Shown here in pieces: positions 33,960 to 54,477 of a stretch of 64,000 nucleotides of DNA. Made by a program: the position numbers and the translations under genes. The notes under the pieces are model-generated. The model did no database searches. It had not been told where the DNA came from and saw nothing but the letters and a program-made list of their open reading frames with translations. This DNA comes from Hydrogenophaga borbori (GTDB taxonomy: Bacteria; Pseudomonadota; Gammaproteobacteria; Burkholderiales; Burkholderiaceae_C). The DNA is taken from contig NZ_QVLS01000001.1 of assembly GCF_003417535.1 (NCBI RefSeq), positions 496,001 to 560,000 of the forward strand. Reading direction: 5' to 3'. Within the stretch, counting starts at the first letter, position 1, and each line of letters starts with the position of its first letter.

Positions 33960-34136
33960 GCCGAATCCTCCTGCGGCGCACCGGCCGCATTCCCGTTCAA
34001 GCTATGCCCCCATCGCATCCGCGCCTCTGGCGACGCGTGTTTGTGCGGCATTCTGCTCGCCGGCCCAGACCGTGCCAAGGGGCAGCCGTCCGGCTTCCTT
34101 CAGAATGCCGGATTTCGCACACATCCAAGGCCGCCC

Positions 34137-38122: not shown

Positions 38123-39718
38123 TCAGTTCGCGGGGATCGTGCGGCCAATCATCTTGAGTTCGATGTTCAGCGGCCTCGGGTTCGGATTGACGGGCCCCTT
38201 GTTGCGAAGGATCACCAGCTCGGTCTCGTGCGCGTGGTGATTGGCGGGCGTGGGGATGCGCGCGACCTCCTCGAACTGGGGGCTGGCCATCAGGTGCTCG
38301 AAGCGGCGCATGGCCTCCAGGTCGGTCCAGAACCCCGGTTGCATCACCACGTAGTGCACGCCTTGATCGTTGAGCAGCTGGCCGAGTTCCGCTTCGCTCA
38401 GGGATTTTTCCTCGACACCGAGCTCACGCCGCACGGACAGGCGCAGCAGGATTTTGTCGGCGCGCAGCACGCTCAGGTCGCGCCGGTCCTCGCGCGCGCG
38501 CAGGTTGAAGATGAAGGAGCCGTCGCGGTAGCCGGAGAACAGCACCACGCTGTGGCGCGGCGCCAGGCGCGCGATCTGGTCGACCACGCGCGCATAGCCA
38601 TCCACGTACGGCACGGGCCGCCACCAGAAGGTGATGGCACCGGTGGACAGCACCAGGGCCAGCAGTGCCGCCTGGCCGCTGAGCACCGGCAGGGCGTCCT
38701 GAACCGCCCACACGGCCACGAAGGCCAGGGGCAGCAGCAGGAACACGCTGTGGCGCGCTTCCTTGAGGTCGATCAGGGAAAAGAACACATAGCCCACCAC
38801 GAACCAGCTCAGCCACAAACCCCACCAGGGCAGCGCGGCACGCTGGCGCCAGGCACGCCACACGCCCCACAGCGCCACGGCCAGCAGAGGCCAGCCCATC
38901 TGCGAAGGCAGTTGCTGCAGGTACCACAGCCAGCCCTGCACGCTCCAGCGCGGTGCCACGGCGTCGGCCACGCCGGCGACGGACTGCAGATTGGCCTGGC
39001 CGAATTTCAGGGTCATCACGACCACCGGCATCAGGGCGGCCAATGTCAGCGCGGCGATCGCCCAGTGCCGCCCCCGCCGCAACAGGCCCAGGCCCTGGTC
39101 GCGCGCCAACACGGCGAGGTAGACCAGGCCCACGAAGCCGACGGTGAGCTTGGTGTTCATGGCCAGCACCAGCAGTGCCGCGCTCAGGCCGAGCCAGCCG
39201 ATGCGCCCGCTGCGCCGGTGCTCCACGAATGCCACCACGCTCCAGACCAGGAAGGCGTAGGCTGGCACCTCGGTCATCACCTGCCGGCCCCAGAGCGCGA
39301 TCTCGGGCAGCAGCACCATGAGCAGCGCGAAGGCCAGCGCCGGCAGCGGCGCCAGCCAGCTGCGCCCCAGCCGCCAGCAGCCCAGGCCAAAGGCGAAGTA
39401 ATGCAGGAAGACCACCAGCAGCGCGACCTCGTGCGACACGCCGAACAGCAGGTAGAACGGCGCGGTCAGCGCATAGAGCAGTGGCGGATAGAAAAGGATG
39501 GTGAGCGCCGGGTACTGCGCGTAGTAGTGGTAGGCGTAGCCCACCGGGTCTTGCCAGGGCCGGTCGCGCAGCAGGTCGGCCACGAAGGCACTGTTGAGCG
39601 CGTGGCGCGCCGCGTCGCTCCACCAGAAGGCACCGCCACGCGGCGACTGCCAGTAGAGCAGCGCCAGCACCGCGACCAGCACGGCGCTGACGAGCCACCA
39701 TGAACTACGCCGCTTCAT
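38123..39718 (-). CDS. GT39/ArnT-like phospholipid-carrier glycosyltransferase
   Basis: 531 residues with about eleven membrane helices. The N-terminus WWSDAARHALNSAFVADLLRDRPWQDPVGYAYHYYAQYPALTILFYPPLLYALTAPFYLLFGVS has the luminal-loop acidic residue and Tyr/Pro pattern of the PMT/ArnT superfamily; later LKEARHSVFLLLPLAFVAVW and a soluble C-terminal domain (KILLRLSVRRELGVEEKSLSEAEL) follow. These enzymes take sugars from polyprenyl phosphate donors on the periplasmic side. Overlaps the neighbouring GT4 gene by 14 nt. Role in the locus: periplasmic decoration of the glycan, inferred. Confidence 0.85.
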   Translation of the reverse strand: MKRRSSWWLVSAVLVAVLALLYWQSPRGGAFWWSDAARHALNSAFVADLLRDRPWQDPVGYAYHYYAQYPALTILFYPPLLYALTAPFYLLFGVSHEVALLVVFLHYFAFGLGCWRLGRSWLAPLPALAFALLMVLLPEIALWGRQVMTEVPAYAFLVWSVVAFVEHRRSGRIGWLGLSAALLVLAMNTKLTVGFVGLVYLAVLARDQGLGLLRRGRHWAIAALTLAALMPVVVMTLKFGQANLQSVAGVADAVAPRWSVQGWLWYLQQLPSQMGWPLLAVALWGVWRAWRQRAALPWWGLWLSWFVVGYVFFSLIDLKEARHSVFLLLPLAFVAVWAVQDALPVLSGQAALLALVLSTGAITFWWRPVPYVDGYARVVDQIARLAPRHSVVLFSGYRDGSFIFNLRAREDRRDLSVLRADKILLRLSVRRELGVEEKSLSEAELGQLLNDQGVHYVVMQPGFWTDLEAMRRFEHLMASPQFEEVARIPTPANHHAHETELVILRNKGPVNPNPRPLNIELKMIGRTIPAN

Positions 39719-40928
39719 GCCCTTGACCTCGCGCCGCGAGAGGGGCCCGCCCGATCACCGACCGGAACAGCTCGAGTTGCCCGCGGGTGGTGTCCTCCCA
39801 CGAGAAGCGCTCCGCGTGCCGTCGCACGGCCTCGCGCGCGGGCGGCGTCAGCATGAGCGCGCGCCAGGCCTCGGCCAGCGAGGCGGCGTCGCGCTCGCGC
39901 ATGAGCCGGCCGGCGTCCGGCGTGCTCACCACCTCGGGCGTGCCCCAGATGTTGGTGGCGATGACGGGCGTGCCGCAGGCCATGGCTTCGAGCAAGACGT
40001 TGGCCCAGCCTTCGCGGCTGCTGCACAGCGTGAGCACGTCGGCCGCGGCGTACCACCACTTCAGCTCGGCCTGCGGCACCACGCCCGCGAAGCGCACGCG
40101 ATCGGCCACGCCCAGGCGCACGGCCAGGGCCTCCAGCGTCGACCGGTCCGGGCCGGAGCCGGCGATCAGCAGGGTGACGTCCGGCAGCTGCGTGAGCGCC
40201 TCGATGGCGATGTGGTGGCCCTTGCGCTCGATCAGCAGGCCGACGGAGAGCAGGTAGCGCCCGTCCACCGGCAGGCCCAGGCGTTCGCGCGCCGCCGCGC
40301 GCGGCTCGGGCACGAAGCGCTCCAGGTCCACGCCGTTGCGCAGGGTGTGCAGCTTGGATGCCTCTCCCCCCAGGTCGCGCAGCGTGTCCATGAGCGCCTG
40401 GCAGACGCCGATGGAGCCGCTGGCGCGCGCCGCCGTGTCCAGGATCAGGCGGCGCGGGTAGGCGTATTGCGGGATGAGGTTGAGGTCGGTGCCGCGCGCC
40501 GTCACCACGAAGGGCTTGCCCAGCCACTTCGCCAACAGGCCGGCGGCGACGCCGTCGGGGTAGTAATAGTGGGCGTCGATGAGGTCGAAATCGAAGCCCT
40601 CGCGCTGCAGGCGCCTGAGCAGCGGCAGCGCCGCCAGCGCCATGGCCCAGGGCGCGAGGTTCATGCCCACCTTGGGCAACAGCAGGTAGCGCGGGTGGAA
40701 CACCTCCAGGCCATTGCGCTCCTCGCGCCGGGGGGTCGCAGCGAACTGGGCGTACTCGCCAAAGCGCTTGGCGGTGGACGGGAACCAGGGCACGGGCGCC
40801 ACGACCTTGGCCTGCACCTCGCCGCTTTTCACCAGCTCGCGCAACCGCGTCTCCACGAAGATGCCGTGGATGGGCCGCACGCCGCTCGGGAACAGCGAGG
40901 AGAAGAGCAGCACCTTCATGGGTTTCAT
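39705..40928 (-). CDS. Glycosyltransferase family 4
   Basis: 407 residues, GT-B fold. N-terminal domain: VLLFSSLFPSGVRPIHGIFVETRLRELVKSG. Nucleotide-sugar domain: GRYLLSVGLLIERKGHHIAIEALTQLPDVTLLIAGSGPDRS, LCSSREGWANVLLEAMACGTPVIATNIWGTPEVV with the EX7E motif. The ATG at 40928 overlaps the upstream stop by 4 nt. It is one of four GT-B enzymes in a row and would add a sugar to the lipid-linked repeat unit in the cytoplasm. The donor cannot be told. Confidence 0.92.
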   Translation of the reverse strand: MKPMKVLLFSSLFPSGVRPIHGIFVETRLRELVKSGEVQAKVVAPVPWFPSTAKRFGEYAQFAATPRREERNGLEVFHPRYLLLPKVGMNLAPWAMALAALPLLRRLQREGFDFDLIDAHYYYPDGVAAGLLAKWLGKPFVVTARGTDLNLIPQYAYPRRLILDTAARASGSIGVCQALMDTLRDLGGEASKLHTLRNGVDLERFVPEPRAAARERLGLPVDGRYLLSVGLLIERKGHHIAIEALTQLPDVTLLIAGSGPDRSTLEALAVRLGVADRVRFAGVVPQAELKWWYAAADVLTLCSSREGWANVLLEAMACGTPVIATNIWGTPEVVSTPDAGRLMRERDAASLAEAWRALMLTPPAREAVRRHAERFSWEDTTRGQLELFRSVIGRAPLAARGQGHEAA

Positions 40929-42106
40929 GCGGCCGCCCCGCGGGTTTGTGTCGCCTGGGCCGCCTGGGCCAGCGCCACCGCGCGGCGCGCATTGCCGGTC
41001 CAGGTGAGCTCCAGCCGGTCGATGGTGTTGGCGGAGCCCTCGCCCAGCCGCTCGCGCAGCTCCGCGTCGCGGCACACGCGGGTGAGCGCTGCTTCCAGCG
41101 CGCCGCGGCCCTGTTCCTCGAACAGCAGTGCGTTGAGCCCGTGCGTGAGCACCTCCATGAGGTTGGGCGTGGCGGGTGCCACCACCGCCTTGCCCAGCGC
41201 CAGGTACTCCATGAGCTTGAGCGGCGAGGCGTAGGGCGTGACGGCCGGCTGCAGCGCGATGTCGAAGGCCGCCACGTGCGCGGGCACGGCGTCGCGGTGC
41301 ACCACGCCGGTGAAAGTGACCCGGTCGGACAGGCCCAGGCGCGCCGCCTGCGCCTCCAGCGCGCCGCGCACCGGGCCATCGCCCACCATCAGCAGGTGGG
41401 CCTCGGGCGGCGCGTCGGGCGTGGCCATCCAGTCGATGATGCGGTCCACGCCGTGCCACTCGCGCACGAAGCCGGTGAAGCCCAGCACCAGGCGGCCCTG
41501 CAGCCCGAGCTGGCGTTTGGCCTCGTCGCGGCCCGGCGCCTGCGCGAAGTGCGAGCGGTTGATGCCATTGGGCACCACATGGATGCGTTCGGCCGGCACG
41601 CCGTAGGCCTTCACGTGGTCCGCCAGCACGGCCGTCACCGGCAGCACGGCATCGGCGCCGCGCCAGGCCATGCCCTCGGCCCAGCGCGCCAGGCGCCGCA
41701 GCGACAGGCCGCCGCTGTGCTGCTCGCGCTCGTGCACCAGCGGGGCGTTGACCTCGAGCAGCAGGGGCAGGCCGAGCTTGCGCTTGGCCATGACGCCGGC
41801 CAGCAGGAACAGGTTGTAGCGTTCGTAGATCACGTCGGGCTGGAACTCGCGCGCGGCGGCCACCAGTTTGCGGTAGGCCACGGCGCTGTAGCTGATTTCC
41901 ATCAACTCATAGAGCGCGCGCGGCAGCACGGCCTTGAGGCGGTGCACCCAGCCCACACCACCGCCCATGCGGCCCTCGTCGCCGCCGCTGGCGGGCGCGA
42001 CGATGCGCACCTCGTGGCCGAGGCCGCGCAGGGCCTCGATCATTTCCTCGATGTGCACGGCCTGGCCGTCTTTGCTGGCGGTGCGGTGGTGGTACAGGAT
42101 GCGCAT
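40925..42106 (-). CDS. XrtA/PEP-CTERM system GT4 glycosyltransferase (TIGR04063-like)
   Basis: 393 residues. MRILYHHRTASKDGQAVHIEEMIEALRGLGHEVRIVAP is the typical start of the TIGR04063-type enzymes from exosortase A loci. LLLEVNAPLVHEREQHSGGLSLRRLARWAE, HVVPNGINRSHF, LVLGFTGFVREWHGVDRII and QPAVTPYASPLKLMEYLALGKAVVAP complete a GT-B enzyme. It overlaps the next gene by 4 nt and follows the TIGR03088-like gene by 7 nt. Cytoplasmic; substrate unknown. Confidence 0.85.
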   Translation of the reverse strand: MRILYHHRTASKDGQAVHIEEMIEALRGLGHEVRIVAPASGGDEGRMGGGVGWVHRLKAVLPRALYELMEISYSAVAYRKLVAAAREFQPDVIYERYNLFLLAGVMAKRKLGLPLLLEVNAPLVHEREQHSGGLSLRRLARWAEGMAWRGADAVLPVTAVLADHVKAYGVPAERIHVVPNGINRSHFAQAPGRDEAKRQLGLQGRLVLGFTGFVREWHGVDRIIDWMATPDAPPEAHLLMVGDGPVRGALEAQAARLGLSDRVTFTGVVHRDAVPAHVAAFDIALQPAVTPYASPLKLMEYLALGKAVVAPATPNLMEVLTHGLNALLFEEQGRGALEAALTRVCRDAELRERLGEGSANTIDRLELTWTGNARRAVALAQAAQATQTRGAAA

Positions 42107-42113
42107 GGCGGGT

Positions 42114-43277
42114 TCAGGCGACCTGCAGGCGCGGCGCCTCGGCGCGCGCGAACAGCGCGGCGTAGGCGTCGACCATGCGGTCGATGGAGTAGTGCAGCTC
42201 GGCGCGCTCGCGCGCGGCGCGGGCCAGGCCCTGGGCAAAGGGAGCGTCGTCGTGCAGCCGGTTCAGGGCCCGGGCCATGGCGGCCTCGTCGTCCGAGGGC
42301 ACCAGCAGGCCGCTGACGCCGTCCTCGAACACGTCGGGGGTGCCGCCCACGGCCGTGGCGAGCACGGGGCGGGCGCTGGCCATGGCCTCCTGCAGCGTGC
42401 ACGAGGTGCCTTCGGCCTGCGAGGGCAGCACGAACACGTCGAGGGCGCGCAGGATGGCGGCGACGTCGCTGCGTGCGCCCGGCAGCCAGGCCAGGGCGCG
42501 CAGGCCGGCCTCGTCGAGCACGCGCTCGACCTCGGCGCGCAGGCCGCCCTCCCCCACGATGACCAGCCGAGCGCGAGCGGCCAGCTCTGGCCGCTCGCGC
42601 AGCCAGCGCACGAAGGCGCGCGCCAGCAGCGGCTGGTTCTTCACCGTCATGAGCCGGCCCACGGTGCCCACCAGCCAGTGGCGGCCGGGCTCGAAGGGGC
42701 AGCCCTCGATGGCCGGCGCGGGGCCGGGCGAAAAGCGGCGCGTGTCCACCCCGTTACCGATCAGGTGGCGCTTGGCCGCCGGCACGCCGACGGCCTCGCC
42801 GAGGTAGCGGTCCAGATCGGCCGAGACGGACACGAAGCGGCTCACGAAGGGCGCGTAGGCGCGGCGCAGCCAGCGGTACTTGGCGCTCAGGCCCTGGGGG
42901 TCGTGCGCGTCCCAGCCATGCTCGACGTGCACACGCCAGGGCACGCCCGCGGCCCAGGCCACCGGCACCACCTCGAGCGGGGCCAGGTTGCAGCTGTGCA
43001 GCACGTCGGGGCGGATCTCGCGCAACAGCCGCCAGATGGCGGGGTACTGCTTGAGCGCGTGGCCCGGCGGCTTGTCGAGCGCGATGAAGCGCACGCCCTC
43101 GCGCTCCACGCGCTGGCGGAAGTCGCTCACCGTGGTGAGCGAGAGCACCACGTGCTCGAAGCGCTCGGCCGGCAGCCGGTTGATGAGCTGCACGATGACG
43201 TTTTCCAGCCCACCGATGTCGAATCGGTAGACCACGTGCAGCACCCGCAGCCGGCGCGCCCCAGCGCTCATCGGCAC
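42114..43277 (-). CDS. XrtA/PEP-CTERM system sugar transferase (TIGR03088-like GT4)
   Basis: 387 residues. RVLHVVYRFDIGGLENVIVQLINRLP and HVVLSLTTVSDFRQRVEREGVRFIALDKPPGHALKQYPAIWRLLREIRPDVLHSCNL are the signature N-terminal region of TIGR03088 proteins. RFVSVSADLDRYL, HLIGNGVDTRRF, VGTVGRLMTVKNQPLL and FVLPSQAEGTSCTLQEAMASARPVLATAVGGTPDVF follow. A downstream ATG two codons in is an equally good start. It lies 52 nt after the amidotransferase gene in the usual order for such loci. Confidence 0.9.
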   Translation of the reverse strand: MPMSAGARRLRVLHVVYRFDIGGLENVIVQLINRLPAERFEHVVLSLTTVSDFRQRVEREGVRFIALDKPPGHALKQYPAIWRLLREIRPDVLHSCNLAPLEVVPVAWAAGVPWRVHVEHGWDAHDPQGLSAKYRWLRRAYAPFVSRFVSVSADLDRYLGEAVGVPAAKRHLIGNGVDTRRFSPGPAPAIEGCPFEPGRHWLVGTVGRLMTVKNQPLLARAFVRWLRERPELAARARLVIVGEGGLRAEVERVLDEAGLRALAWLPGARSDVAAILRALDVFVLPSQAEGTSCTLQEAMASARPVLATAVGGTPDVFEDGVSGLLVPSDDEAAMARALNRLHDDAPFAQGLARAARERAELHYSIDRMVDAYAALFARAEAPRLQVA

Positions 43278-43329: not shown

Positions 43330-45243
43330 TCACGGTTTGTCCTCCGGGCTCAGTTCGTGCCGGCGCAGGAAGGCCTCGAACATCACCAGCATCCACAGCG
43401 GCGTGGCGTGGTCGCTGGTGCCGCGCTGGTGCTCGTCCACCAGGCGCTGGAGCTGGCGCTCCTGGAAATAGCCCGAGTCGCGCAGGCGATCGCCCAGCAC
43501 GGCTTCTTTCACGCGGCCGGCCAGCGGACCGCGCAGCCAGTCGGCCAGCGGCACCGAGAAGCCCATCTTGGGCCGGTAGAGCACGTCGTGCGGCAGCTTG
43601 GGTTCCATGGCGCGCTTGAGCAGGGCCTTGCCTTCGCTGCCATCGATCTTCAGGTGGCTGGGCAAGGTGGCCAGCCACTCGATGAGCTCGTGGTCCATCA
43701 GCGGTTCGCGCACCTCCAGCGAGTGCGCCATGCTCGCGCGGTCCACCTTGGTGTTGATGTCGCCGACCAGCCAGGTCTTGTAGTCCAGGTACTGGATCAG
43801 GGCCAGCGGATCGTCGGTCTGCGCCTGGTCGGCGTGCTGGGTGAAGACGTCCAACGCGCTGTAGCCGCCCAGGCCCCGCTTGAAGCCCTCGCTGAAGAGC
43901 GCGCTGCGCTGGTCGGCGCGCAGGTGGGACATGCTGTGGTGGTAGGCCTCCACGCTGTCCATGGCCAGGGCCTGGAAGGTGGTCTTGGCGCGCAGCGGGC
44001 GCGGCGCCCAGTCGGCCTTGGGGTAGATCTGGCCCAGGGGGCCGAAGACCGGCCGGCGCAGGCCCAGCGGCAGGCGGCGTCGCACGGCCTCCTCGCCCAG
44101 GTGCAGGCGGTAGCGGCGGTAGCCGCCGAAGCTCTCGTCGCCGCCATCGCCCGACAGGGCCACGGTCACGTGCCGGCGCGCCATCTGGCAGACGCGGTAG
44201 GTCGGGATGGCGGAGCTGTCGGCAAAGGGCTCGTCGTAGAGCCAGGCCAGGGTGTCGATGAGGCCGAAGTCGTCGCTGCCCACCACGTCGAGCGTGTGGT
44301 TGGTGCGGTAGCGATCGGCCACCATCCTGGCGAAGTCCGACTCGTTGAAGCGGGGGTCGTCGAAGCCGATGGCGCAGGTGTGCACGGGCGATTCGGACAG
44401 GCCGGCCATGGTGGCGACCACGGCGCTCGAATCGACGCCGCCCGACAGGAAGGCGCCCAGCGGCACGTCGGCGATCATGCGCAGGCGCACCGACTCGCGC
44501 AGGCGCTCGCGCAGCTCGGCCTGGGCGTCGGCGGCGCTGATGGGGTTGTCGGTGGTAAAGCGCACGTCCCAGTAGGACTGGGGCTCGGGGCGCGCCGCGC
44601 CACCGCGGCGCAGCGTGAGCGTGTGCGCCGAGGGCAGCTTGTGCGCGCCCTGGTAGATGCAGCGCGGGTCGGCCACGTAGCCGAGCGAGAAGTACTCCTC
44701 CACCGCCAGCGGGTCGATGCGGCGCTGGAAGCCAGGGTGCGAGGTGATGGTCTTGAGTTCGGAGCCAAAGACGAAGCTGCCGTCGGGCAGCCAGGCGTAG
44801 TGCAGCGGCTTCACGCCCAGGCGGTCGCGCGCCAGGAACAGGGTCTGCTGGTGGCGGTCCCACAGCGCGAAGGCGAACATGCCGCGCAGGCGCTGCACGC
44901 AGGCCGGGCCCCAGGCGCGCCAGGCGTTGACGATGACCTCGGTGTCGCTGCGCGTGCGGAACTTCAGGCCGAGCGAGCGCAGCTCGGGCACGAGCTGCTG
45001 GAAGTTGTAGATCTCGCCGTTGAAGACGATGGCGATGCTGCCGTCCTCGCTGAACAGCGGCTGGTCGCCGGTGGACAGGTCGATGACCGACAGGCGCCGG
45101 TGGCCCAAGGCCAGGCCGGGCTCCAGGTGCAGCCCGTCGCTGTCGGGGCCGCGGTGCGATTGCACGTCGTTGATGCGGCGCATCAGCGCCGGGTCGAAGG
45201 GCCGCAGGCCCACGGGGTCGAACAGGCCGGCGATGCCGCACAT
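43330..45243 (-). CDS. XrtA-system asparagine-synthase-like amidotransferase (TIGR03108-like)
   Basis: 637 residues. It begins MCGIAGLF, exposing the N-terminal glutaminase Cys. The glutaminase domain has HRGPDSDGLHLEPGLALGHRRLSVIDLSTGDQPL and FNGEIYNFQQL; the synthetase domain holds [17 protein letters not shown] (PP-loop) and VALSGDGGDESFGGYRRY, DYKTWLVGDINTKVDRASMAHSLEVREPLMDHEL and PKMGFSVPLADWLRGPL. This is the exosortase A associated amidotransferase 1 subfamily, thought to amidate a sugar or lipid of the exported polymer. Start chosen because the Cys must follow the initiator Met. It precedes the TIGR03088-like gene, as in other XrtA loci. Confidence 0.92.
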   Translation of the reverse strand: MCGIAGLFDPVGLRPFDPALMRRINDVQSHRGPDSDGLHLEPGLALGHRRLSVIDLSTGDQPLFSEDGSIAIVFNGEIYNFQQLVPELRSLGLKFRTRSDTEVIVNAWRAWGPACVQRLRGMFAFALWDRHQQTLFLARDRLGVKPLHYAWLPDGSFVFGSELKTITSHPGFQRRIDPLAVEEYFSLGYVADPRCIYQGAHKLPSAHTLTLRRGGAARPEPQSYWDVRFTTDNPISAADAQAELRERLRESVRLRMIADVPLGAFLSGGVDSSAVVATMAGLSESPVHTCAIGFDDPRFNESDFARMVADRYRTNHTLDVVGSDDFGLIDTLAWLYDEPFADSSAIPTYRVCQMARRHVTVALSGDGGDESFGGYRRYRLHLGEEAVRRRLPLGLRRPVFGPLGQIYPKADWAPRPLRAKTTFQALAMDSVEAYHHSMSHLRADQRSALFSEGFKRGLGGYSALDVFTQHADQAQTDDPLALIQYLDYKTWLVGDINTKVDRASMAHSLEVREPLMDHELIEWLATLPSHLKIDGSEGKALLKRAMEPKLPHDVLYRPKMGFSVPLADWLRGPLAGRVKEAVLGDRLRDSGYFQERQLQRLVDEHQRGTSDHATPLWMLVMFEAFLRRHELSPEDKP

Positions 45244-45244
45244 A

Positions 45245-46453
45245 TCAGGAGCTCTCCGTGGTGGGCAGCCAGGCCGCCAAGCGGTCCAGGTTGGCCTGCC
45301 AGCTGAAGTTCTGGACGACGTGTTCGCGCGCCGCCGCGCCCAGGCGCTCGCGGCGCGCCGGATCGGCCAGCCAGGCGAGCACGCCTTGCGCGAAGCAGTC
45401 GGCTTCATCACAGCGCCACAGGCCCTGCTCGGCCGTGGCGCCGATGGGCTCGGCGCAGGACGGGACCGTGATCACGGGCTGCCCCATGGCCATGGCCTCC
45501 AGGATCTTGTTCTGTATGCCGCGCGCCACGCGCAGGGGCGCCACCACGGCGGCCGCGTGCTGCAGGTAGGGCTCCACCTGGGGCACGGTGCCGGTGACGT
45601 GAACCGCGTCGCTGGCGAGGGCCTGCACGGCCGGCGTGGGGTTGCGGCCCACGATCCAGAAGCTGGCCCGGGGCTCGCGCTCGCGGATGCGCGGCAGCAC
45701 CTCGTTGGCGAACCAGACCACGGCGTCCACGTTGGGCCAGTAGTCCATGGCGCCGGTGAAGACGATGGCGCGCTCATCGGCGGCAAAGGGAGATGGCAGG
45801 GCGGGGTCGGGCCGGAAGCGCTCGGCGTCCACGCCGTTGCCGGCGGCTTCCACGCGGTCGCGGCACTCGGGCGCGAGCGAGGCGAAAAGCTCCACCTCCT
45901 GCGGCGTGACGAGAAAGCTGCGGCGCGCGGCCAGGGCCATGTCGCGTTCGTGCGCGAGCAGGCGCCGGCCCTCGCGGCGGTACACCCAGGACAGGGGCCA
46001 GCGGTGGGCGGGCGCGTACTGCGTCCACTTGGCCGAGTCCACGTCCACCAGGTCCACCAGCATGGGCACCCGCGGCAGCAGCGCCTGGGCGTAGGGCGCC
46101 ATGGTGGACGAGAACACCACGCTGGCCACGGGCCGGTGCTCGGCCGCCACCTTTTGCACCCAGTGGCGCAGGCCGGCGTGGCGGTAATAGGCCAGCGACT
46201 GGGCCTCGCCCGTGAGCAGCGCGCGCGCGCTGGCGAGCTTGCGCCAGCGCGGGTTCAGGCGCGCCACGTACAGGTCGGGGCACAGGGCGCGCAGGGCGTC
46301 CAGGTGGGCCTCGTCGGCGGGGTCGTCGATGAAGGTGGCCAGGAAAACGCGGTGGCGCTGCTGCAGGTGGCGCAGCAGGTGGTACGAGCGCACCTTGTCG
46401 CCTTTGTCGGGCGGGTAAGGCATGCGGTGGACGAGGTAGAGCAGCGGTGTCAT
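45245..46453 (-). CDS. XrtA/PEP-CTERM system glycosyltransferase (TIGR03087-like)
   Basis: 402 residues. LLYLVHRMPYPPDKGDKVRSYHLLRHLQQRHRVFLATF is the hallmark start of the TIGR03087 family. VDLVDVDSAKWTQYA, GNGVDAERFRPD, IVFTGAMDYWPNVDAVVWFANEVLPRIREREP, and APLRVARGIQNKILEAMAMGQPVITVP follow. It begins only 10 nt after the stop of the FemAB-like gene. In exosortase A loci described elsewhere, the exosortase gene usually lies exactly between these two; here it is absent. One nt separates its stop from the amidotransferase start. Confidence 0.92.
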   Translation of the reverse strand: MTPLLYLVHRMPYPPDKGDKVRSYHLLRHLQQRHRVFLATFIDDPADEAHLDALRALCPDLYVARLNPRWRKLASARALLTGEAQSLAYYRHAGLRHWVQKVAAEHRPVASVVFSSTMAPYAQALLPRVPMLVDLVDVDSAKWTQYAPAHRWPLSWVYRREGRRLLAHERDMALAARRSFLVTPQEVELFASLAPECRDRVEAAGNGVDAERFRPDPALPSPFAADERAIVFTGAMDYWPNVDAVVWFANEVLPRIREREPRASFWIVGRNPTPAVQALASDAVHVTGTVPQVEPYLQHAAAVVAPLRVARGIQNKILEAMAMGQPVITVPSCAEPIGATAEQGLWRCDEADCFAQGVLAWLADPARRERLGAAAREHVVQNFSWQANLDRLAAWLPTTESS

Positions 46454-46463
46454 CGCCCTGCCC

Positions 46464-47519
46464 TCATCCCAGATTCCTGACGATGTGCGGGCCCAGCCAG
46501 TTGGCCACCGGCAGCGGCAGGCGCCGCCAGGTCTCGATCATCAGCTTGTACTTGGGGTTGGCCGGGTTGTTCTGGGGGATGCTGTCGCGCTTGTAGAGCC
46601 GGTACTCGTAGTGCAGCGGCGTGGGCTCGAAGCCCCAATTGCGCTTGAACGAGAACGGCCCGGTGCCGACCTTGCTGCGGCCGTAGTCGAAGACCTTGAG
46701 GCCGCGCGCGCAGGCGCGGCGCATGAGTTCCCAGTACTTGAAGTCGTTGCCGGCCAGGTCGCGCGCGGCGGTGTCGTCGCCCGCGAAGGTGGGCAGCACC
46801 TCGTCGCGGAAATAGAAGCTCAGCACGCTGGACAGCGGCTTGCCCTGGTCGTCGGTGACGGTGAGCACCTCGCAGTCGTCGCCGAAGGTGTCGCGCAAGG
46901 CCTGGAAGTAGCGCCGCGACAGCGCCGGCGTGCCATGGCGGTGCACGTTGCTGGCGTAGAGCGCGAAGAAGCGGTCCACGCCGGGGTCGATGTGCGAGAC
47001 CAGGCCGTTCTTGATGCCCTTGCGCACCATGGCGCGCTGCTTGCGCGGAATGGCCAGCATGTTGGCCTCTTCGGTGGGTTCGATGGGCTTGCGGAAGGTG
47101 ACGTACAGCGCGTCCTGCGCGGGCCAGTCGGGGTGGCGGCGCTGCATGTGGCGCAGCTCCAAATGGTCCACGCCCAGGCGCTGGGCGATGGCCTGGGCCT
47201 CGGCCTCCAGCGCGGCGCGGGCCTCGTCGTCCAGCGCGGCCACGCCGCCATAGGCCGCGAACGGCAGGCTGCTCAGCGAATGGCCGAACAGGCGGCTATG
47301 TACGCGCGCCAGCGGCAGCACGCCGCGGATCTGGCCGTTCGATTCGGCCCACAGGAAATGGGTGTCGTGGCGCAGCACCTCACGCGTGATGCGCTCCCAG
47401 CCCGCGCGGTGGAAGAAGGTGGCCTCGGGGCAGGCCGTCACGAAGGCGTCCCAGCGCGCGGCATCCGCGGCGCGCGAGCCGTCGAGGCGGTGCAGGCTCA
47501 GGTTCGTGGTCTCAGGCAA
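46464..47519 (-). CDS. FemAB family XrtA/PEP-CTERM system-associated protein (TIGR03019-like)
   Basis: 351 residues. Two GNAT-like lobes of the FemAB family: DAFVTACPEATFFHRAGWERITREVLRHDTHFLWAE and IPRKQRAMVRKGIKNGL in the first, then LSFYFRDEVLPTFAGDDTAARDLAGNDFKYWELMRRACARGLKVFDYGRSKVGTGPFSFKRNWGFEPTPLHYEYRL, the diagnostic block of this subfamily. FemAB enzymes join amino acids using aminoacyl-tRNA; in XrtA loci they are suspected to modify the polysaccharide. The start overlaps the deacetylase stop by 8 nt. Confidence 0.9.
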   Translation of the reverse strand: MPETTNLSLHRLDGSRAADAARWDAFVTACPEATFFHRAGWERITREVLRHDTHFLWAESNGQIRGVLPLARVHSRLFGHSLSSLPFAAYGGVAALDDEARAALEAEAQAIAQRLGVDHLELRHMQRRHPDWPAQDALYVTFRKPIEPTEEANMLAIPRKQRAMVRKGIKNGLVSHIDPGVDRFFALYASNVHRHGTPALSRRYFQALRDTFGDDCEVLTVTDDQGKPLSSVLSFYFRDEVLPTFAGDDTAARDLAGNDFKYWELMRRACARGLKVFDYGRSKVGTGPFSFKRNWGFEPTPLHYEYRLYKRDSIPQNNPANPKYKLMIETWRRLPLPVANWLGPHIVRNLG

Positions 47520-48378
47520 GCGCCACCTCTGCCTGCCGGCGCCCGAGGAAGATCTGGTCCATGCGGCCCCAGGGCAGGTCCTTCAGGAGCCGGCGCAGCT
47601 TGGCCTCGTTGCGCTCGAGATTCACATAGTGGCGAAAGCGCGTCTTCAGGTCGATGCCGGGCACGCGCGGCTGCTCGGCGTCGATCTCCCAGGGGTGGAA
47701 ATAGAAGATGGCGGACTCGCCGTCGCGCCGGTTCACCGATTCGATCATCCAGCGCGACAGGCTGTAGGGCAGCAGGCGGAAGTAGCCGCCACCGCTGGAC
47801 GGCAGGTTGCGGCTGAAGACCCGCAGCGTGGTGGGCGGCACCTCGATCAGGCCCTCGCGCACAGGGTGCACGAAGCGCGGTGCGTCGGGCGAGCCATAGT
47901 GGTCGTGGCGCACCGGGTAGATGCTGGAGCTGTAGCGGTGCCCGGTGTCGGCCAGCACGTCCAGGGCCCAGAGGTTGCCCTCGCCAATGGAGAAGCTCGG
48001 CGCACGGTAGCCCAGCACCTCCACGCCGCCGGTGTCTTCCAGCACGCGCCGCGCGCGCACCACGTCTTCGCGGAAGTCGGTGGCGTCCAGGTCGCTCACG
48101 CGCTGGTGGCCATAACCGTGGCTGGCAAGCTCGTGGCCCTGCTCGACGATGCGGCGCACCATGGCCGGGTAGCGCTCGGCGATCCAGCCGAGGGTGAAGA
48201 AGGTGGCCTGCGCGCCCTCGTCGGCCAGCATCTGCAGGATGCGGTCCACGTTGCGTTCGACGCGGCACTCGACGCTGTCCCAGTCGCTGCGCCGGATGTA
48301 GGGCGCCAGGGCGGAGACCTGGAAGTAGTCCTCGACGTCGATGGTGAGGGCATTCAGGCGATCGGTTTTCATCAACAT
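47512..48378 (-). CDS. XrtA-system polysaccharide deacetylase (TIGR03006-like)
   Basis: 288 residues, NodB fold. LTIDVEDYFQVSAL gives the metal-binding/base Asp pair, GHELASHGYGHQRVSDL gives the HxxxH metal site, GYRAPSFSIGEGNLWALDVLADTGHRYSSSIYPVRHDHYG follows, and IFYFHPWEIDAEQPRV ends with the catalytic His. It removes acetyl groups from N-acetyl sugars during or after export. No signal peptide is apparent, as in other members of this subgroup. Start at 48378 (MLMKTD) is kept; ATG two codons further is an alternative. Between the ATPase and FemAB genes in the canonical order. Confidence 0.92.
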   Translation of the reverse strand: MLMKTDRLNALTIDVEDYFQVSALAPYIRRSDWDSVECRVERNVDRILQMLADEGAQATFFTLGWIAERYPAMVRRIVEQGHELASHGYGHQRVSDLDATDFREDVVRARRVLEDTGGVEVLGYRAPSFSIGEGNLWALDVLADTGHRYSSSIYPVRHDHYGSPDAPRFVHPVREGLIEVPPTTLRVFSRNLPSSGGGYFRLLPYSLSRWMIESVNRRDGESAIFYFHPWEIDAEQPRVPGIDLKTRFRHYVNLERNEAKLRRLLKDLPWGRMDQIFLGRRQAEVALA

Positions 48379-48400: not shown

Positions 48401-49549
48401 TCAGCCCGGCGGCGCGTCGCTGGGCGCGCCGCCCTGCGGACCGTTTCCGTTGCGACCCTTGCGGGCGCCCGCGACGATGCGCCGCAGCGAGCTGAGGATT
48501 TCCAGGCTGATGCGCTCCTGGCGCAGCACGCTGCGCTCGATGCGCAACAGGCGCGCGCTGAGCTGCTCGGCCGCCACCTGCGTGAGCTGCTCGGACATGC
48601 CCTCGACCATGCCGGGGTCGATGTCCAGGTCCAGCGGTTCGACCTGGTCGGTGAGCGTGGGCGGCATGCCGCGCGGGGGAATCTCGGCCAGCGGGCCCCA
48701 GCGGCTGGCGTCTTGCTCGGTGCGCGTGGGCGAGGCGGCGGTCTCGGCCCGGGCCTCGTTCACCACGTCCTGGAAGGCTTCCAGCGTGAGGTGCGGCGTC
48801 TCGGCCAGGAAGCCCTGCAGCAGCAGCCGGTCCACCAGCAGGTTGATGCGGCGCGGGATGCCTCCCGACTCCTGGTGCAGCAGCGCGAAGATGCCTTCGT
48901 CGAAGGTCGGCTTGTCGGTGGCGCCGGCGCACTTGAGGCGGTGCTCCACGTAGCCGCGCGTGTCCTCCTCGTCCAGCGGGCCCAGGTGGCAGCGCGCCGT
49001 GACGCGCTGGCGCAGCTGCAGCATGCGCGGGCTTTGCAGGATGTCGCGGAACTCGGGCTGGCCGATCAGGAAGGTCTGCAGCAGCGCCTGGTCGCCGAAC
49101 TGGAAGTTGGAGAGCATGCGCAGCTCTTCCACCGCCTGGGGCTGCAGGTTCTGTGCCTCGTCGACGATCAGCAGGCAGCGCTTGCCCTGCGAGACCTGGG
49201 TGATGAAGTAGGCCTCCAGGGCCATGAGCATGTCGGCCTTGCTGTTGCCCTTGACGGACACGCCGAACGCAGCGCACACGAGCTTGAGCGCGTCCTCGGC
49301 GCCCAGCTGTGTGCTGACGAGCTGGGCGGCCACGACCGAGCCGTTCTCCAGGCTGTCGAGCAGGTCGCGCACGATGGTGGTCTTGCCCGCGCCCACCTCG
49401 CCCGTGATGACGATGAAGCCTTCGCCGCGCATGACGCCGTACACCAGGTAGGAGCGCGCCCGCCGGTGCGGCTTGCCCGAAAAATAGAAACGCGGGTCCG
49501 GGTTGAGCTGGAAAGGCTTGCTCTTGAGCCCGTAGAAGGCTTCGTACAT
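48401..49549 (-). CDS. XrtA/PEP-CTERM system-associated AAA ATPase (TIGR03015-like, ExeA-type)
   Basis: 382 residues. MYEAFYGLKSKPFQLNPDPRFYF is the standard start; GFIVITGEVGAGKTTIVRDLLDSL is the Walker A, RCLLIVDEAQNLQPQAVEELRMLSNF the Walker B with sensor, and LRQRVTARCHLGPLDEEDTRGYVEHRLKCAGA the C-lid. The family is related to ExeA of type II secretion. The C-terminal 110 residues after VNEARAETAAS are low-complexity and end with a helix (VEGMSEQLTQVAAEQLSARLLRIERSVLRQ) and a Gly/Asn-rich tail. Located between the outer-membrane protein and deacetylase genes. Confidence 0.92.
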   Translation of the reverse strand: MYEAFYGLKSKPFQLNPDPRFYFSGKPHRRARSYLVYGVMRGEGFIVITGEVGAGKTTIVRDLLDSLENGSVVAAQLVSTQLGAEDALKLVCAAFGVSVKGNSKADMLMALEAYFITQVSQGKRCLLIVDEAQNLQPQAVEELRMLSNFQFGDQALLQTFLIGQPEFRDILQSPRMLQLRQRVTARCHLGPLDEEDTRGYVEHRLKCAGATDKPTFDEGIFALLHQESGGIPRRINLLVDRLLLQGFLAETPHLTLEAFQDVVNEARAETAASPTRTEQDASRWGPLAEIPPRGMPPTLTDQVEPLDLDIDPGMVEGMSEQLTQVAAEQLSARLLRIERSVLRQERISLEILSSLRRIVAGARKGRNGNGPQGGAPSDAPPG

Positions 49550-49552
49550 GGA

Positions 49553-51145
49553 TCAGAACCGATGGGAAACCATGGCCTGGATGGCCGTTTCCCGGTAAGG
49601 GGTGGTGGCGTCGAAAGACGAGCGGCGCAGCATCACGACACCGGTGGTGCGGGCGCTCAGGCGCGTGGTCAGCGCCAGGGTGATCGAATCGAGGCGGTTG
49701 AACAGCGTGGTGCCCACACCCACGTTTTCCTGGCGCTGGAAGGTGACGCTGGCCGCCGAGCGCGGCGAAAGACGGTGCGCGTAGGCCACGCTCCAGCCCT
49801 TTTGCAGGATCTCGCTGGCGAAGTTGAAGTCGTCACCGGTGACCAGGCTGTTGTTGAGCTGGTTCGAGCGCGTGCGCTGGATCGCGGCCGTGAGGGCGCC
49901 GCGGTTGAGCATCAGCACGAAGGCGAGTTCCTGGATGCGCTGCTCGGTGACGAAGGACGTGAGGTAGCCGGGGAAGTTGGTGGTGTTGCCCGGCAGGCCC
50001 AGGCGCTCCAGCTCGCTCTGCACGCGCTGCGCGCGCTGCACCGGGTCGGGGATGCTGCCGCCGTACAGGGCGTCGAGAAGGCCCGACAGGGTGGTGCTGC
50101 CGTCGCCCAGTCCCAGCTGGCTGGTGGAGATGTCGCGCGAGTCCGTGAAACGCACCACCGCGCGGCGCATCTGGTACTCGGCCTGCAGGTTGTGGTCGTG
50201 ACCGAAGAAGCGCTTGTTCGCGCCCATGGCGATGCGCGCGTTCTGCGTCGGCCGCCAGTTGAAGCCGCCGCCCCAGGTGGAGTAGGACTCGGTGTCGGCC
50301 GTGAGCACGTTGTTGGATTCGCGGCCGCCCTGCACGTAGACCAGCAGCGTCGGGGTCACCGCGTAGTTCAGTTGGCCGATCACCTGCTGCAGCGTGACCT
50401 TGCGACCCAGGCTGTAGTCGAGGTTGCTGCGCGAGGCGTCCAGCGCCCAGCCCAGGCGGGCCACGCCCTCGCTGCTGGCCAGGCGGCCCGAAACGGTGTT
50501 CTCGTCGATGTCGGATCGGTTGTCGGCCTGGGTGCGCGACGTGAAGCGGCTGTAGCGCAGCTCGTAGTCGACAGCGTCGTTGAAGCTGCCGCGCAGGTAG
50601 GGCGAGATGCGGAACTGCTTGGTCTCCGCCAGGTTCGGGCGCTCGAAATCGCCCACCGGCTGCACATCGAAGGCCGACACGCGGCTGCGGCCGACGTTGC
50701 CGTTGAATTCGACGAAGGCGGTGTTGTTCCAGGCGTCGAGCAGCAGGTTGGCGTCCAGGCCCTGCAGGTGGTCCTCCTGCCCCACGCCTTGCGCCTGGTA
50801 CAGGCCGCTGAGCGAGTAGTCCACGCTGCCGGTCAGGCGCGGCAGATTGAACACGGCCAGCACCGAGGCGCCCAGCTCGGTGGTCCATTCGGACTGGCGG
50901 TCGGTGCCGCTGAGCAGGTAGTTGTCGGTGTACCACTGGCGGGCGAACACGCGCGGTTCGATCCACACGCGCGGCGGCGGCCCCTGCGGCGTGATCGACT
51001 CCTGCACCTGGGTGGCGGCGCCCGGCACTTCCATCGGCACCTGCGCGCGCGCCGCTCCCGCCAGCGCCAGGGTGGCCAGGGCCACGGCGCTCAGTGGCAG
51101 GCGGCACCGGGGGCGCGGGATCGAGGGGGTCGCTATCGGGCGCAT
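49553..51145 (-). CDS. XrtA/PEP-CTERM system outer-membrane beta-barrel protein (TIGR03016-like)
   Basis: 530 residues with a signal peptide ending GAARAQ. The rest is alternating amphipathic strands and turns, such as TGSVDYSLSGLYQAQ, ESNNVLTADTESYSTWGGGFNWRP and QRTRSNQLNNSLVTGD, and it ends in MVSHRF, the C-terminal aromatic needed for outer-membrane insertion. TIGR03016 proteins are the presumed outer-membrane export or assembly component of these loci. Its stop is 3 nt before the ATPase ATG. Identification rests on the barrel pattern plus its place in the operon. Confidence 0.85.
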   Translation of the reverse strand: MRPIATPSIPRPRCRLPLSAVALATLALAGAARAQVPMEVPGAATQVQESITPQGPPPRVWIEPRVFARQWYTDNYLLSGTDRQSEWTTELGASVLAVFNLPRLTGSVDYSLSGLYQAQGVGQEDHLQGLDANLLLDAWNNTAFVEFNGNVGRSRVSAFDVQPVGDFERPNLAETKQFRISPYLRGSFNDAVDYELRYSRFTSRTQADNRSDIDENTVSGRLASSEGVARLGWALDASRSNLDYSLGRKVTLQQVIGQLNYAVTPTLLVYVQGGRESNNVLTADTESYSTWGGGFNWRPTQNARIAMGANKRFFGHDHNLQAEYQMRRAVVRFTDSRDISTSQLGLGDGSTTLSGLLDALYGGSIPDPVQRAQRVQSELERLGLPGNTTNFPGYLTSFVTEQRIQELAFVLMLNRGALTAAIQRTRSNQLNNSLVTGDDFNFASEILQKGWSVAYAHRLSPRSAASVTFQRQENVGVGTTLFNRLDSITLALTTRLSARTTGVVMLRRSSFDATTPYRETAIQAMVSHRF

Positions 51146-51163: not shown

Positions 51164-52078
51164 TCAGGCCGTGGTGTTCGCCTCGGCCGGCGCTTCCGTG
51201 CCGTAGCCGTAGCCATAGCCGTAGGAGTTGCGCTCTTCCTCGCGGACCTGGTTGAGCACCATGAGCTTGATCGGGCAGTTCTCGATCGCCTCCAGCGCGT
51301 GGCGCACCTGGGCGCGCTGCGTCTGGCCGGCCTGCACCACCATCACGATCTGGCCCATGTGCGTGGCCAATACACGCGACTCGGTGGTCATCAGCAGCGG
51401 CGGCGAATCGAAAATGATGATGCGCTCGGGGTAGCGGTGCCCCATCTCCTCCACCAGCGTGCTCATGGCGTCGCTGGCCAGCAGTTCGGTGGCGCGCGCG
51501 TGCGGCGTGCCGCTGGGCAGCAGCGTGAGCTTGTCGATGTTGGTGCGCAGCAGCACCTCGGACATCTCGGTCTCGTTGCCCACCAGCAGGTCCATCAGGC
51601 CCCGGCCGGACGGCAGACCCAGGGTCTTCATGACCGAGGGGCGCGAGACGTCGGCGTCGACCAGCAGCACCGTGTGGTCAAGCTCCATGGCAATGCTCAC
51701 CGCCAGGTTGATGGCGGTGAAGGTCTTTCCCTCGCCCGCCAGCGCACTGGTGATCATGATGCGGTTGCCGTGGGTCACGGGCGCGGCGCCCTTGCCCATG
51801 GCGTTGGCCAGCAGCGGGCGCTTGATGACGCGGAACTGCTCGGCCGTGAGGGAGCGCTGGGCCTTGGGGGTGACGAAGCCCGCTTCCGTCAGGGCGTCCA
51901 GGTCGAGCTGCACGACCTTGGAGCTGCTCTGCGGACGCAGGGACTGCGTGGGCCTCGGCATGGCCACGGGCGGGCGCGCCGCGGCAGCCGGCGGGGCCTC
52001 GGGGGTGTCGGGTATGTCGGCCCCGGCCTGGCGAAGCTGCTCCAGCCGTTGCGCCGCTTTTTCGATCAGACTTGCCAT
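51164..52078 (-). CDS. XrtA-associated tyrosine autokinase (BY-kinase, TIGR03018-like)
   Basis: 304 residues. Walker A SALAGEGKTF at 111-120, Walker A' LLVDADVSRPS at 138-148, Walker B IIIFDSPPLL near 230, and a C-terminal Tyr cluster (YGYGYGYG) that is the autophosphorylation site. BY-kinases cycle with the chain-length protein to control polymer length. The start MASLIEKAAQRLEQLRQAG at 52078 follows the family pattern; a further ATG at 52093 immediately abuts the previous stop. The gene follows the chain-length gene and precedes the barrel gene. Confidence 0.93.
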   Translation of the reverse strand: MASLIEKAAQRLEQLRQAGADIPDTPEAPPAAAARPPVAMPRPTQSLRPQSSSKVVQLDLDALTEAGFVTPKAQRSLTAEQFRVIKRPLLANAMGKGAAPVTHGNRIMITSALAGEGKTFTAINLAVSIAMELDHTVLLVDADVSRPSVMKTLGLPSGRGLMDLLVGNETEMSEVLLRTNIDKLTLLPSGTPHARATELLASDAMSTLVEEMGHRYPERIIIFDSPPLLMTTESRVLATHMGQIVMVVQAGQTQRAQVRHALEAIENCPIKLMVLNQVREEERNSYGYGYGYGTEAPAEANTTA

Positions 52079-52093
52079 CGCTTCAGGCCCCAT

Positions 52094-53662
52094 TCAAACG
52101 GATGATTGGTGAATGGACAGCGCCACCATGCCCAGCGCGAACAGCAGCACCAGCGCGACGATCGCGACGATCACCCGCAGCAAGCTGCGCCCCTGGCGGT
52201 GGCGGATCACCTCGTTTCGCACCTGGGTGACCACGCCCAGCAGGGGCAGGTCGACCGCGCTGCGCAGGCCGGCGGCATCGAAGTACACCGGCCGCAGGTT
52301 GCTCACCATGAACGCCACCGCCGCCCCAGCCACCAGCGAAAGCAGCAGCACGCCCGGCAGCAGCACCACGCGGTTGGGGGCCACCGGGCGACGCGACACC
52401 TGAGGCGGCTCCACCACGCGGAACTGCGCCACGTGCGCGTCGCTTTGCAGCTCGTTGCTCAGGGCCACGGTCTCGCGCCGCGCGACCAGGTCCTCGTAGT
52501 TCTTGCGGTGCACGTCGTAGTCGCGGTTGAGCTGGGCCAGCTCGGCCTCGACCTGCGGCGCCACCTTGGCTTGTTCGCGGATGCGGGCGGCGCGGCCTTC
52601 GTACTCGGCCACGCGGGCGCGCAGCGAGGCGACCTGCACTTCGGTGGCGGCCACCGTGCGCGACATCTCCTGCATCGCGGGGTTCATGTCGGGCATGGGC
52701 CGGCCGGCGGCCTCGGCCTGCTGGGCGCGCTTGCGCAGGGCCTCGACCTCGCGCGCCTTTTGCTGCTCGAGCTCGGCGATCAGCTTGCGGGTGTTCTGCA
52801 CGTCGGGGTGCTGCTCGGTGAAGCGCTGCAGCAGGCCGTCGAGGTTGCGGCGCAGCACGTCGATGCGGGCGTCGATCTCGGGCGTGGCAAAGGTCTGGGC
52901 GGGCAAGGTGGCGGCGGCGTTGCGGGCCGCGGCGCGCGCCTGCTCGAGCTGGGCACGGGCCGCTTCGCGGGCGCTTTCGGCCTCGCGCAACTCCAGCCGC
53001 GCCTGGCTCAACGTGGTGCTGATTTCGGCCATGCGGCCGGCCATGTCCACCCCACCCTGGGTCTGCATGTCGATATGGCGCAGACGAAAGTCCTTCAGCC
53101 GTGTCTCGGCGTCGGTGAGCTTGGACTCGTAGTTGCGGATCTGCTCCTCGATGAACTTGCGCGCGTTCTGCGCATCGGCCGTGTATGCCCCCGTGCGCGA
53201 GGCGATGAAGGTCTTCATCAGCGCGTCCACCACGCGCAGCGCCAGCTGGGGGTTCTGGTCGCGGTACGAGATGGTGTACAGGTTGTCGCGGCCGGTGGAC
53301 TTGAGCTGGATGTTGCCCATGATGCGGCCGACCAGCGCGTCCCGCTCGGCCTTGCCGGCCAGGGGCACGCCCAGGTCCTCGGACTGCACCAGCTTCTCGA
53401 TGGTGGGCCGGCTGATGAGTGTGCGGCCCAGCATCGCCACCTGCTGTTCGACGTCGGGCTGGATCGTCAGGCCCGCCATCAGCGGACGCAGGATGGATTG
53501 CGTGTCGACGTACACCCGGGCCGATGCCTCGAAGCGGTCGGGGATGAACATCACGGCGGCGGCGCCCAGGAGGGCCACGGCCCATGCCACGGCCACACCG
53601 GTGCGGCGGTACAGCCACATGCCGCGCAGCGCGTTGGTGAGTTGGTGGATCAGTTCATGCAT
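52094..53662 (-). CDS. XrtA-system polysaccharide chain-length determinant (TIGR03007-like)
   Basis: 522 residues, PCP/Wzz type. An N-terminal membrane helix (AVAWAVALLGAAAVMFIPD), then YVDTQSILRPLMAGLTIQPDVEQQVAMLGRTLISRP, a long periplasmic alpha-helical region with coiled coil between about 180 and 380, then PPQVSRRPVAPNRVVLLPGVLLLSLVAGAAVAFMV, and a last helix near the C-terminus. Partner of the tyrosine autokinase just downstream. Begins 69 nt after the export lipoprotein stop. Confidence 0.93.
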   Translation of the reverse strand: MHELIHQLTNALRGMWLYRRTGVAVAWAVALLGAAAVMFIPDRFEASARVYVDTQSILRPLMAGLTIQPDVEQQVAMLGRTLISRPTIEKLVQSEDLGVPLAGKAERDALVGRIMGNIQLKSTGRDNLYTISYRDQNPQLALRVVDALMKTFIASRTGAYTADAQNARKFIEEQIRNYESKLTDAETRLKDFRLRHIDMQTQGGVDMAGRMAEISTTLSQARLELREAESAREAARAQLEQARAAARNAAATLPAQTFATPEIDARIDVLRRNLDGLLQRFTEQHPDVQNTRKLIAELEQQKAREVEALRKRAQQAEAAGRPMPDMNPAMQEMSRTVAATEVQVASLRARVAEYEGRAARIREQAKVAPQVEAELAQLNRDYDVHRKNYEDLVARRETVALSNELQSDAHVAQFRVVEPPQVSRRPVAPNRVVLLPGVLLLSLVAGAAVAFMVSNLRPVYFDAAGLRSAVDLPLLGVVTQVRNEVIRHRQGRSLLRVIVAIVALVLLFALGMVALSIHQSSV

Positions 53663-54355: not shown

Positions 54356-54477
54356 GCTCACGGCCTCCAAAGAAGGGACAAGTGTTAATAAAAGTAAACA
54401 GTCGGCGAATATACCCCAGCACCCTATGGTGAACCACCTTCACGCCTCGGGAAGCTCATTCAAACGTGGGACTCCAT

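Follow-up and report, generated by a model that had tools for sequence, protein, structure and literature searches.

The XrtA (EpsH)/PEP-CTERM protein-sorting system, with its exopolysaccharide loci, was defined in Proteobacteria (Haft, 2006; PMC1569441). In Methylobacillus sp. 12S, disruption of epsH is reported to have left methanolan production unaffected, and PEP-CTERM-negative genomes, too, contain relatives of these polysaccharide families (Haft, 2006; PMC1569441). An rpoN1 mutant of Aquincola shed its polysaccharide, and overexpression of PepA, a PEP-CTERM protein, brought back binding and the formation of flocs (PMC9850573). FemAB-type proteins have been speculated to make the exosortase linking sugar, and in three species described as without exosortases, vimA homologues have vimE homologues and genes of the Wbp pathway as neighbours (PMC7468200). 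Here, we examine a stretch of 64,000 nucleotides from Hydrogenophaga borbori (contig NZ_QVLS01000001.1, positions 496,001 to 560,000; hereafter the window), which carries the complete glycan part of an XrtA-type exopolysaccharide locus and no exosortase. The comparisons indicate that a known locus has a stable form free of exosortase, which appears to have arisen at least twice in one genus. Most probably, protein sorting has been lost, whereas the Wzx/Wzy polysaccharide pathway was kept and is self-sufficient. The original prediction, made from the window alone, had offered the retention of the glycan machinery after loss of protein sorting as one reading, and this reading is well supported by the gene content, the absences, the trees and the retained genes. 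Within the scope of one library of open-access literature, seen in part, no report was found of exosortase-less forms of the XrtA-type locus, and nothing on exosortase in Hydrogenophaga or on exosortase, PEP-CTERM and exopolysaccharide together in Comamonadaceae. The novelty is limited, since Haft (2006) had noted the PEP-CTERM-negative relatives and PMC7468200 names the vimA-bearing species said to lack exosortases.

Sorting genes and the site of xrtA

The H. borbori assembly (G000; G and L numbers denote genomes and loci of the comparison sets) comprises 4.58 Mb in 37 contigs and is rated 100% complete. Gene families were called by profile matches over the NCBIfam cut-offs. Across the whole of G000 there is no match to exosortase A (TIGR03109) or to the exosortase family (PF09721). 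Exosortase B is likewise not found, PF09721 being without a match here while the same model detects XrtB in G302, G305, G319 and G328. No PEP-CTERM signal (PF07589) exceeds the cut-off; a single match below it (C5:95601-95654, E-value 0.31) was set aside, as it lies near the end of what appears, by eye, to be a multi-helix membrane protein. PrsK (TIGR02916) and PrsT (TIGR02917) also gave nothing over cut-off. Thus, no recognised sorting gene was found in G000, the search having not extended to rhombosortase/GlyGly-CTERM, IPTL-CTERM, TIGR02595 or PrsR (TIGR02915). The absence of exosortase and PEP-CTERM signals noted in the window therefore holds genome-wide: neither xrtA nor the many PEP-CTERM proteins that might have been encoded elsewhere came to light, and the suggestion that the locus works with a distant exosortase of the same genome finds no candidate.

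The glycan part, in contrast to the sorting genes, is complete: TIGR03027, TIGR03007, TIGR03018, TIGR03016, TIGR03015, TIGR03006, TIGR03019, TIGR03087, TIGR03108, TIGR03088 and TIGR03097 (11 of 11) all exceed their cut-offs. The components of a Wzx/Wzy-dependent pathway, namely a flippase, a Wzy-type polymerase, a co-polymerase and an export protein, are present at the level of family matches, and the function would be that of a free-standing polysaccharide pathway. In window coordinates, the features are as follows.

53732 to 54370, minus strand: TIGR03027 exopolysaccharide export protein (232.8 bits, cut-off 180)
52094 to 53662, minus strand: TIGR03007 chain-length determinant (494.6 bits, cut-off 279)
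51164 to 52093, minus strand: TIGR03018 tyrosine autokinase (280.9 bits, cut-off 231)
49553 to 51145, minus strand: TIGR03016 outer-membrane protein (236 bits, cut-off 91)
48401 to 49549, minus strand: TIGR03015 ATPase (394 bits, cut-off 324.5)
47512 to 48378, minus strand: TIGR03006 polysaccharide deacetylase (440.9 bits, cut-off 276)
46464 to 47519, minus strand: TIGR03019 FemAB-like transferase (517.6 bits, cut-off 260)
45245 to 46453, minus strand: TIGR03087 glycosyltransferase (stp1) of 402 residues (534.3 bits, cut-off 317; match spanning 1-394 of the 397 profile positions)
45244, minus strand: xrtA site of 60 of the 71 named relatives with FemAB then TIGR03087; here one base parts the stop of TIGR03087 from the start of TIGR03108
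43330 to 45243, minus strand: TIGR03108 amidotransferase, asparagine-synthase type (1027 bits, cut-off 817; Pfam)
42114 to 43277, minus strand: TIGR03088 glycosyltransferase (stp2) (476 bits, cut-off 409)
40925 to 42238, minus strand: GT4-type glycosyltransferase, TIGR04063-like (below that cut-off, 133.5 of 442)
39705 to 40920, start approximate, minus strand: GT4-type glycosyltransferase (family match)
38123 to 39718, minus strand: PMT_2-type membrane glycosyltransferase (family match)
36560 to 37990, minus strand: TIGR03097 Wzy_C ligase/polymerase (326.8 bits, cut-off 188; Wzy_C match)
35607 to 36563, minus strand: GT2 glycosyltransferase (family match)
34119 to 35576, start approximate, plus (opposite) strand: Wzx-type flippase (family match)
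33096 to 33959, minus strand: Cupin_8 domain protein (family match), taken as the locus end
29797 to 31920: uvrC, beyond the locus end

An open reading frame at 34002-34952 on the minus strand was dropped, having no family match and lying antisense to the flippase gene; it is matched in nine xrtA-less regions, the window included, and in one of the three xrtA-bearing regions mapped.

The FemAB (TIGR03019) and TIGR03087 genes are real and intact, both over cut-off, and lie 10 nucleotides apart, as had been described. The expectation that the exosortase gene usually separates them is not borne out. Among the best 80 named relatives of 379 confirmed, a sample that favours near kin, FemAB is followed, as next recognised gene, by TIGR03087 in 71, by xrtA in seven and by another gene in one, the contig ending in the last. 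In those 71, TIGR03087 is followed by xrtA (60), TIGR03108 (seven), TIGR03088 (two) or a contig end (two). Because xrtA comes next after TIGR03087 in 60 of the 71, the missing exosortase belongs on the other side of TIGR03087, at 45244, and not at the FemAB/TIGR03087 junction. There, in G000, a single nucleotide separates the TIGR03087 stop (45245-45247) from the TIGR03108 ATG (45241-45243). The same distance is 1-3 nucleotides in all ten xrtA-less loci of the genus, and in the six xrtA-bearing genus loci with TIGR03108 nearby the xrtA stop lies 0-2 nucleotides from the TIGR03108 ATG. The 10-nucleotide gap between FemAB and TIGR03087 in G000 is ordinary: it ranges from 3 to 21 nucleotides in the ten xrtA-less loci and from 10 to 24 in seven of the eight xrtA-bearing ones (five at 10-11, G331 at 12, G357 at 24). 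In the eighth, G330 (L193), the gap is unreadable, TIGR03087 being split into two overlapping matches, probably by a frameshift. Misassembly at 46450-46470 is unlikely, as G305 and G328, assembled separately, share this gene order, the two gaps being 10 and 1-3 nucleotides. Two other arrangements were seen among the loci: in L185 (G267) FemAB is followed by TIGR03088-like and TIGR03108-like genes, and in L048 (G368) 998 nucleotides without an xrtA match separate TIGR03087 from TIGR03108. L048 was not taken as a firm loss, as G368 has no PF09721 match but two PEP-CTERM matches, one of them over cut-off.

Distribution and history of the xrtA-less state

The genus set consists of the 18 of 67 genomes of the genus (apparently Hydrogenophaga) with TIGR03019 over cut-off, and is thus chosen by the presence of FemAB; PF09721 was searched in these 18 and in G208 and G280, which have neither TIGR03019 nor an exosortase. 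In eight of the 18 the locus contains xrtA (G114, G306, G311, G318, G330, G331, G337 and G357), four have only exosortase B, encoded elsewhere in the genome (G302, G305, G319 and G328), and six have no exosortase (completeness 100% for G000, 99% for G321 and G324, 94% for G339, 88% for G341 and 93% for G348). All four XrtB were typed by profile, as was the xrtA of G114 and G311; the other six xrtA were assigned by position and 56-75% identity. PEP-CTERM proteins, counted as PF07589 matches with E-values up to 0.05 by a profile that can miss unusual variants, occur in all eight xrtA-bearing genomes (1 to 20 each) and all four exosortase-B genomes (4 to 9), and in none of the six exosortase-free ones. 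PrsK and PrsT are both over cut-off in the same seven of the eight xrtA-bearing genomes and in none of the ten xrtA-less genomes (the PrsT profile also exceeds its cut-off in one of 14 control genomes); in G114, G311 and G306 they lie 38-55 kb beyond FemAB. The eighth, the 2.2 Mb G331, has xrtA with neither PrsK nor PrsT over cut-off, which speaks against a strict linkage. In G328 a second, distant FemAB-family match (L161, C6:171266-172174) scores 62.6 bits, below cut-off.

In a family sample of 299 genomes, 83 have TIGR03019 over cut-off and only G000 and G100 of these are without a PF09721 match. G100 was not counted as a further exosortase-free case, since its contig (L183) ends 73 nucleotides after FemAB and the genome has 19 PEP-CTERM matches. 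Exosortases in this sample were typed to subfamily in a minority only. Genomes with an exosortase but none typed XrtA include G040 (74% complete; XrtQ only) and G267, whose three exosortases are XrtB, twice, and XrtQ. L098 and L103 were left uncounted as xrtA-less loci, an exosortase having been found in both genomes; that of L098 was typed XrtA, and that of the L103 genome is on a contig equal in length to the one carrying L103. Loss of xrtA is thus rare in the family sample, most of whose exosortases are untyped, and common in the genus.

A tree was built from five proteins encoded in each of 24 loci (L098 and L103 left out). In it, the ten xrtA-less genus loci split into two clades, one of G000, G305, G328, G341 and G302 beside the xrtA-bearing G306, the other of G348, G319, G339, G324 and G321 beside the xrtA-bearing G114, G337, G311 and G318. 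These branches have 100 bootstrap and 99-100 Shimodaira-Hasegawa-like approximate likelihood ratio support, and a single xrtA-less clade is rejected (log-likelihood 211 lower; approximately unbiased test, p = 8.4e-6). A wider tree, quickly made from 78 loci, gives the same result for the genus rows; its labels for L098 and L103 are wrong and were not used. These are trees of the locus, not of the species, and counts of changes on them cannot separate gain from loss. However, the xrtA tree, with its early genus branches unresolved, is compatible with the locus tree, and DODA and PhaZ lie upstream of the locus in all five relatives with the flank fetched (G114, G311, G306, G302 and G324), which together argue for loss rather than gain. 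The simplest reading is that xrtA would have been lost at least twice within the genus.

Outside it, Acidovorax delafieldii 2AN (L070) is a third case. Its genome has exosortase H (XrtH) only and no PEP-CTERM match, and 162 nucleotides separate TIGR03087 from TIGR03108. Possibly, a short relic of xrtA persists there (L070:12336-12437), with matches of 34-35 residues at 41-53% identity (E-values 0.009-0.9); one further match of 156 residues (29%, E-value 4e-6) lies partly over the TIGR03087 end. In the xrtA-less loci, tblastn also gave brief matches to xrtA N-termini; these were rejected as relics, since most coincide with the first residues of the query, which translate the end of TIGR03087 in another frame. 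An empty exosortase-B site in G000 was also sought at the DNA level, and none was shown, the matches being scattered and rearranged. Separately, a dispersed repeat of about 60-100 bp (80-93% identity) was seen at L205:5168-5250 in G328 and at some 30 places in G000.

Retained genes and competing explanations

Besides FemAB, TIGR03027, TIGR03007, TIGR03018, TIGR03016, TIGR03015, TIGR03006, TIGR03087 and TIGR03108 are present in all ten xrtA-less loci. Ratios of nonsynonymous to synonymous substitution (dN/dS; simple pairwise Nei-Gojobori values) range from 0.03 to 0.35 in six xrtA-less pairs, with ten genes compared, and from 0.015 to 0.26 in two xrtA-bearing pairs, with 8 and 10 genes compared, all far below 1, and the retained genes are therefore under purifying selection.

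We propose that the ancestor had xrtA between TIGR03087 and TIGR03108, as relatives suggest, with prsK, prsT and the PEP-CTERM genes further on. xrtA would have been removed cleanly and operon coupling probably kept, because TIGR03108 starts 1-3 nucleotides after the TIGR03087 stop much as it starts 0-2 nucleotides after the xrtA stop in relatives; prsK and prsT would also have been lost and, in G000, all recognisable PEP-CTERM proteins too. In the remaining pathway the glycosyltransferases may build a repeat unit, which FemAB, the TIGR03006 deacetylase and the TIGR03108 amidotransferase would decorate; Wzx would then flip and Wzy polymerise it, with TIGR03007, TIGR03018 and TIGR03027 presumably setting chain length and serving export. 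Without PEP-CTERM proteins the polymer would presumably be set free or held by some other means, release being suggested by the rpoN1 and PepA results in Aquincola (PMC9850573).

Several observations weigh against this proposal. PEP-CTERM proteins persist in the four exosortase-B genomes, among them those of the nearest relatives, G305 and G328, so that full loss of sorting holds for six of the ten xrtA-less genomes. In G100, 19 PEP-CTERM matches occur with no exosortase, PrsK or PrsT found; the four families therefore need not travel together. A clear TIGR03088 ortholog is present in only seven of the ten xrtA-less loci; this gene had passed by coverage in all ten, but was rejected as a ninth retained gene as G339, G324 and G321 match at only 31-33% identity. 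dN/dS of FemAB is 0.09-0.19 in the six xrtA-less pairs as against 0.066 and 0.070 in the two xrtA-bearing pairs, and that of TIGR03016 is 0.30 and 0.35 in pairs with G000 as against 0.09 for G305-G328 (other xrtA-less pairs, 0.25-0.32; xrtA-bearing pairs, 0.17 and 0.26). With few pairs and unequal synonymous divergence, these values hint at some relaxed constraint after the loss of xrtA. The FemAB comparison and the corrected TIGR03088 count slightly lower our confidence.

An alternative is that the locus still serves sorting through a ligating enzyme other than an exosortase (a rhombosortase, for example, or an unknown ligase) acting on the sugar modified by FemAB, the deacetylase and TIGR03108. 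Of the three species with vimA homologues said to be without exosortases two have rhombosortase, a modified sugar having been speculated to be the linking compound (PMC7468200), and the decorating genes are kept in all ten xrtA-less loci. However, the six exosortase-free genomes have no PEP-CTERM matches, and TIGR03108 may not be tied to sorting in G114 (L182) and G337 (L192): it was not found in the 90 kb around the locus of the first or the 60 kb around that of the second, although both have xrtA with 18-19 PEP-CTERM matches, a dissociation in the reverse direction. We regard this alternative as unlikely, and somewhat more so the version in which an unrecognised non-exosortase ligase joins the modified sugar to surface proteins or polymer, which would be a new anchoring mechanism.

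More doubtful still is a gradual decay of the locus, in which the exosortase was the first part to go and the rest is to follow. G208 and G280, with neither TIGR03019 nor an exosortase, the somewhat higher dN/dS of FemAB in xrtA-less pairs and the seeming xrtA relic of A. delafieldii 2AN agree with it; against decay speak the eleven named genes over cut-off in G000, the low dN/dS and the two xrtA-less clades, each of five genomes that all keep the eight tested genes. Finally, that xrtA and the PEP-CTERM genes are hidden in assembly gaps, or the junction misassembled, is very improbable even with G000 in 37 contigs (hidden genes may apply to G100, given its contig end and its PEP-CTERM matches), as the same type of junction is found in nine other assemblies of the genus, as G324 (3 contigs, 99% complete) likewise has no exosortase and no PEP-CTERM match, and as a gap would need to conceal xrtA, prsK, prsT and every PEP-CTERM gene at once.

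Implications and comparison with known systems

If sorting was indeed lost and the polysaccharide pathway kept, two separate losses in one genus amount to a natural experiment, in which the genes known as XrtA/PEP-CTERM system-associated divide into a sorting set that is lost (xrtA, prsK and prsT, joined in six genomes by every recognised PEP-CTERM protein) and a glycan set that is kept (the eight families found in every xrtA-less locus, with FemAB there by the choice of genomes). Since purifying selection acts on these genes in genomes with neither an exosortase nor a PEP-CTERM target found, the pattern counts against the making of an exosortase linking sugar as the sole role of FemAB, the deacetylase and TIGR03108, provided that no other sorting system has stepped in. 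Moreover, an annotation with XrtA/PEP-CTERM in its name is no proof that a genome has the system.

Of the known systems, the exosortase B/PEP-CTERM system is present in the xrtA-less relatives G302, G305, G319 and G328 of the same genus; it is sited elsewhere in those genomes, and was not found in G000. The Wbp/Vim pathway of type IX secretion resembles the locus in that VimA matches the FemAB family TIGR03019, in that the asparagine synthases of exosortase loci match both PGN_1234 and TIGR03108, and in that a deacetylation step has been proposed there too (PMC7468200). There, however, the sugar is attached to sorted proteins, whereas neither an exosortase nor a PEP-CTERM protein was found in G000. 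With XrtA/PEP-CTERM loci the likeness is closer, the same families standing in the same order as in xrtA-bearing relatives, with upstream neighbours common to five relatives; unlike these loci, G000 has no xrtA, PrsK, PrsT or PEP-CTERM protein over cut-off. The methanolan locus of Methylobacillus sp. 12S also makes a polysaccharide reported, from a mutation, not to need epsH (PMC1569441); there, epsH is naturally present, whereas in H. borbori its counterpart appears to have been lost by evolution.

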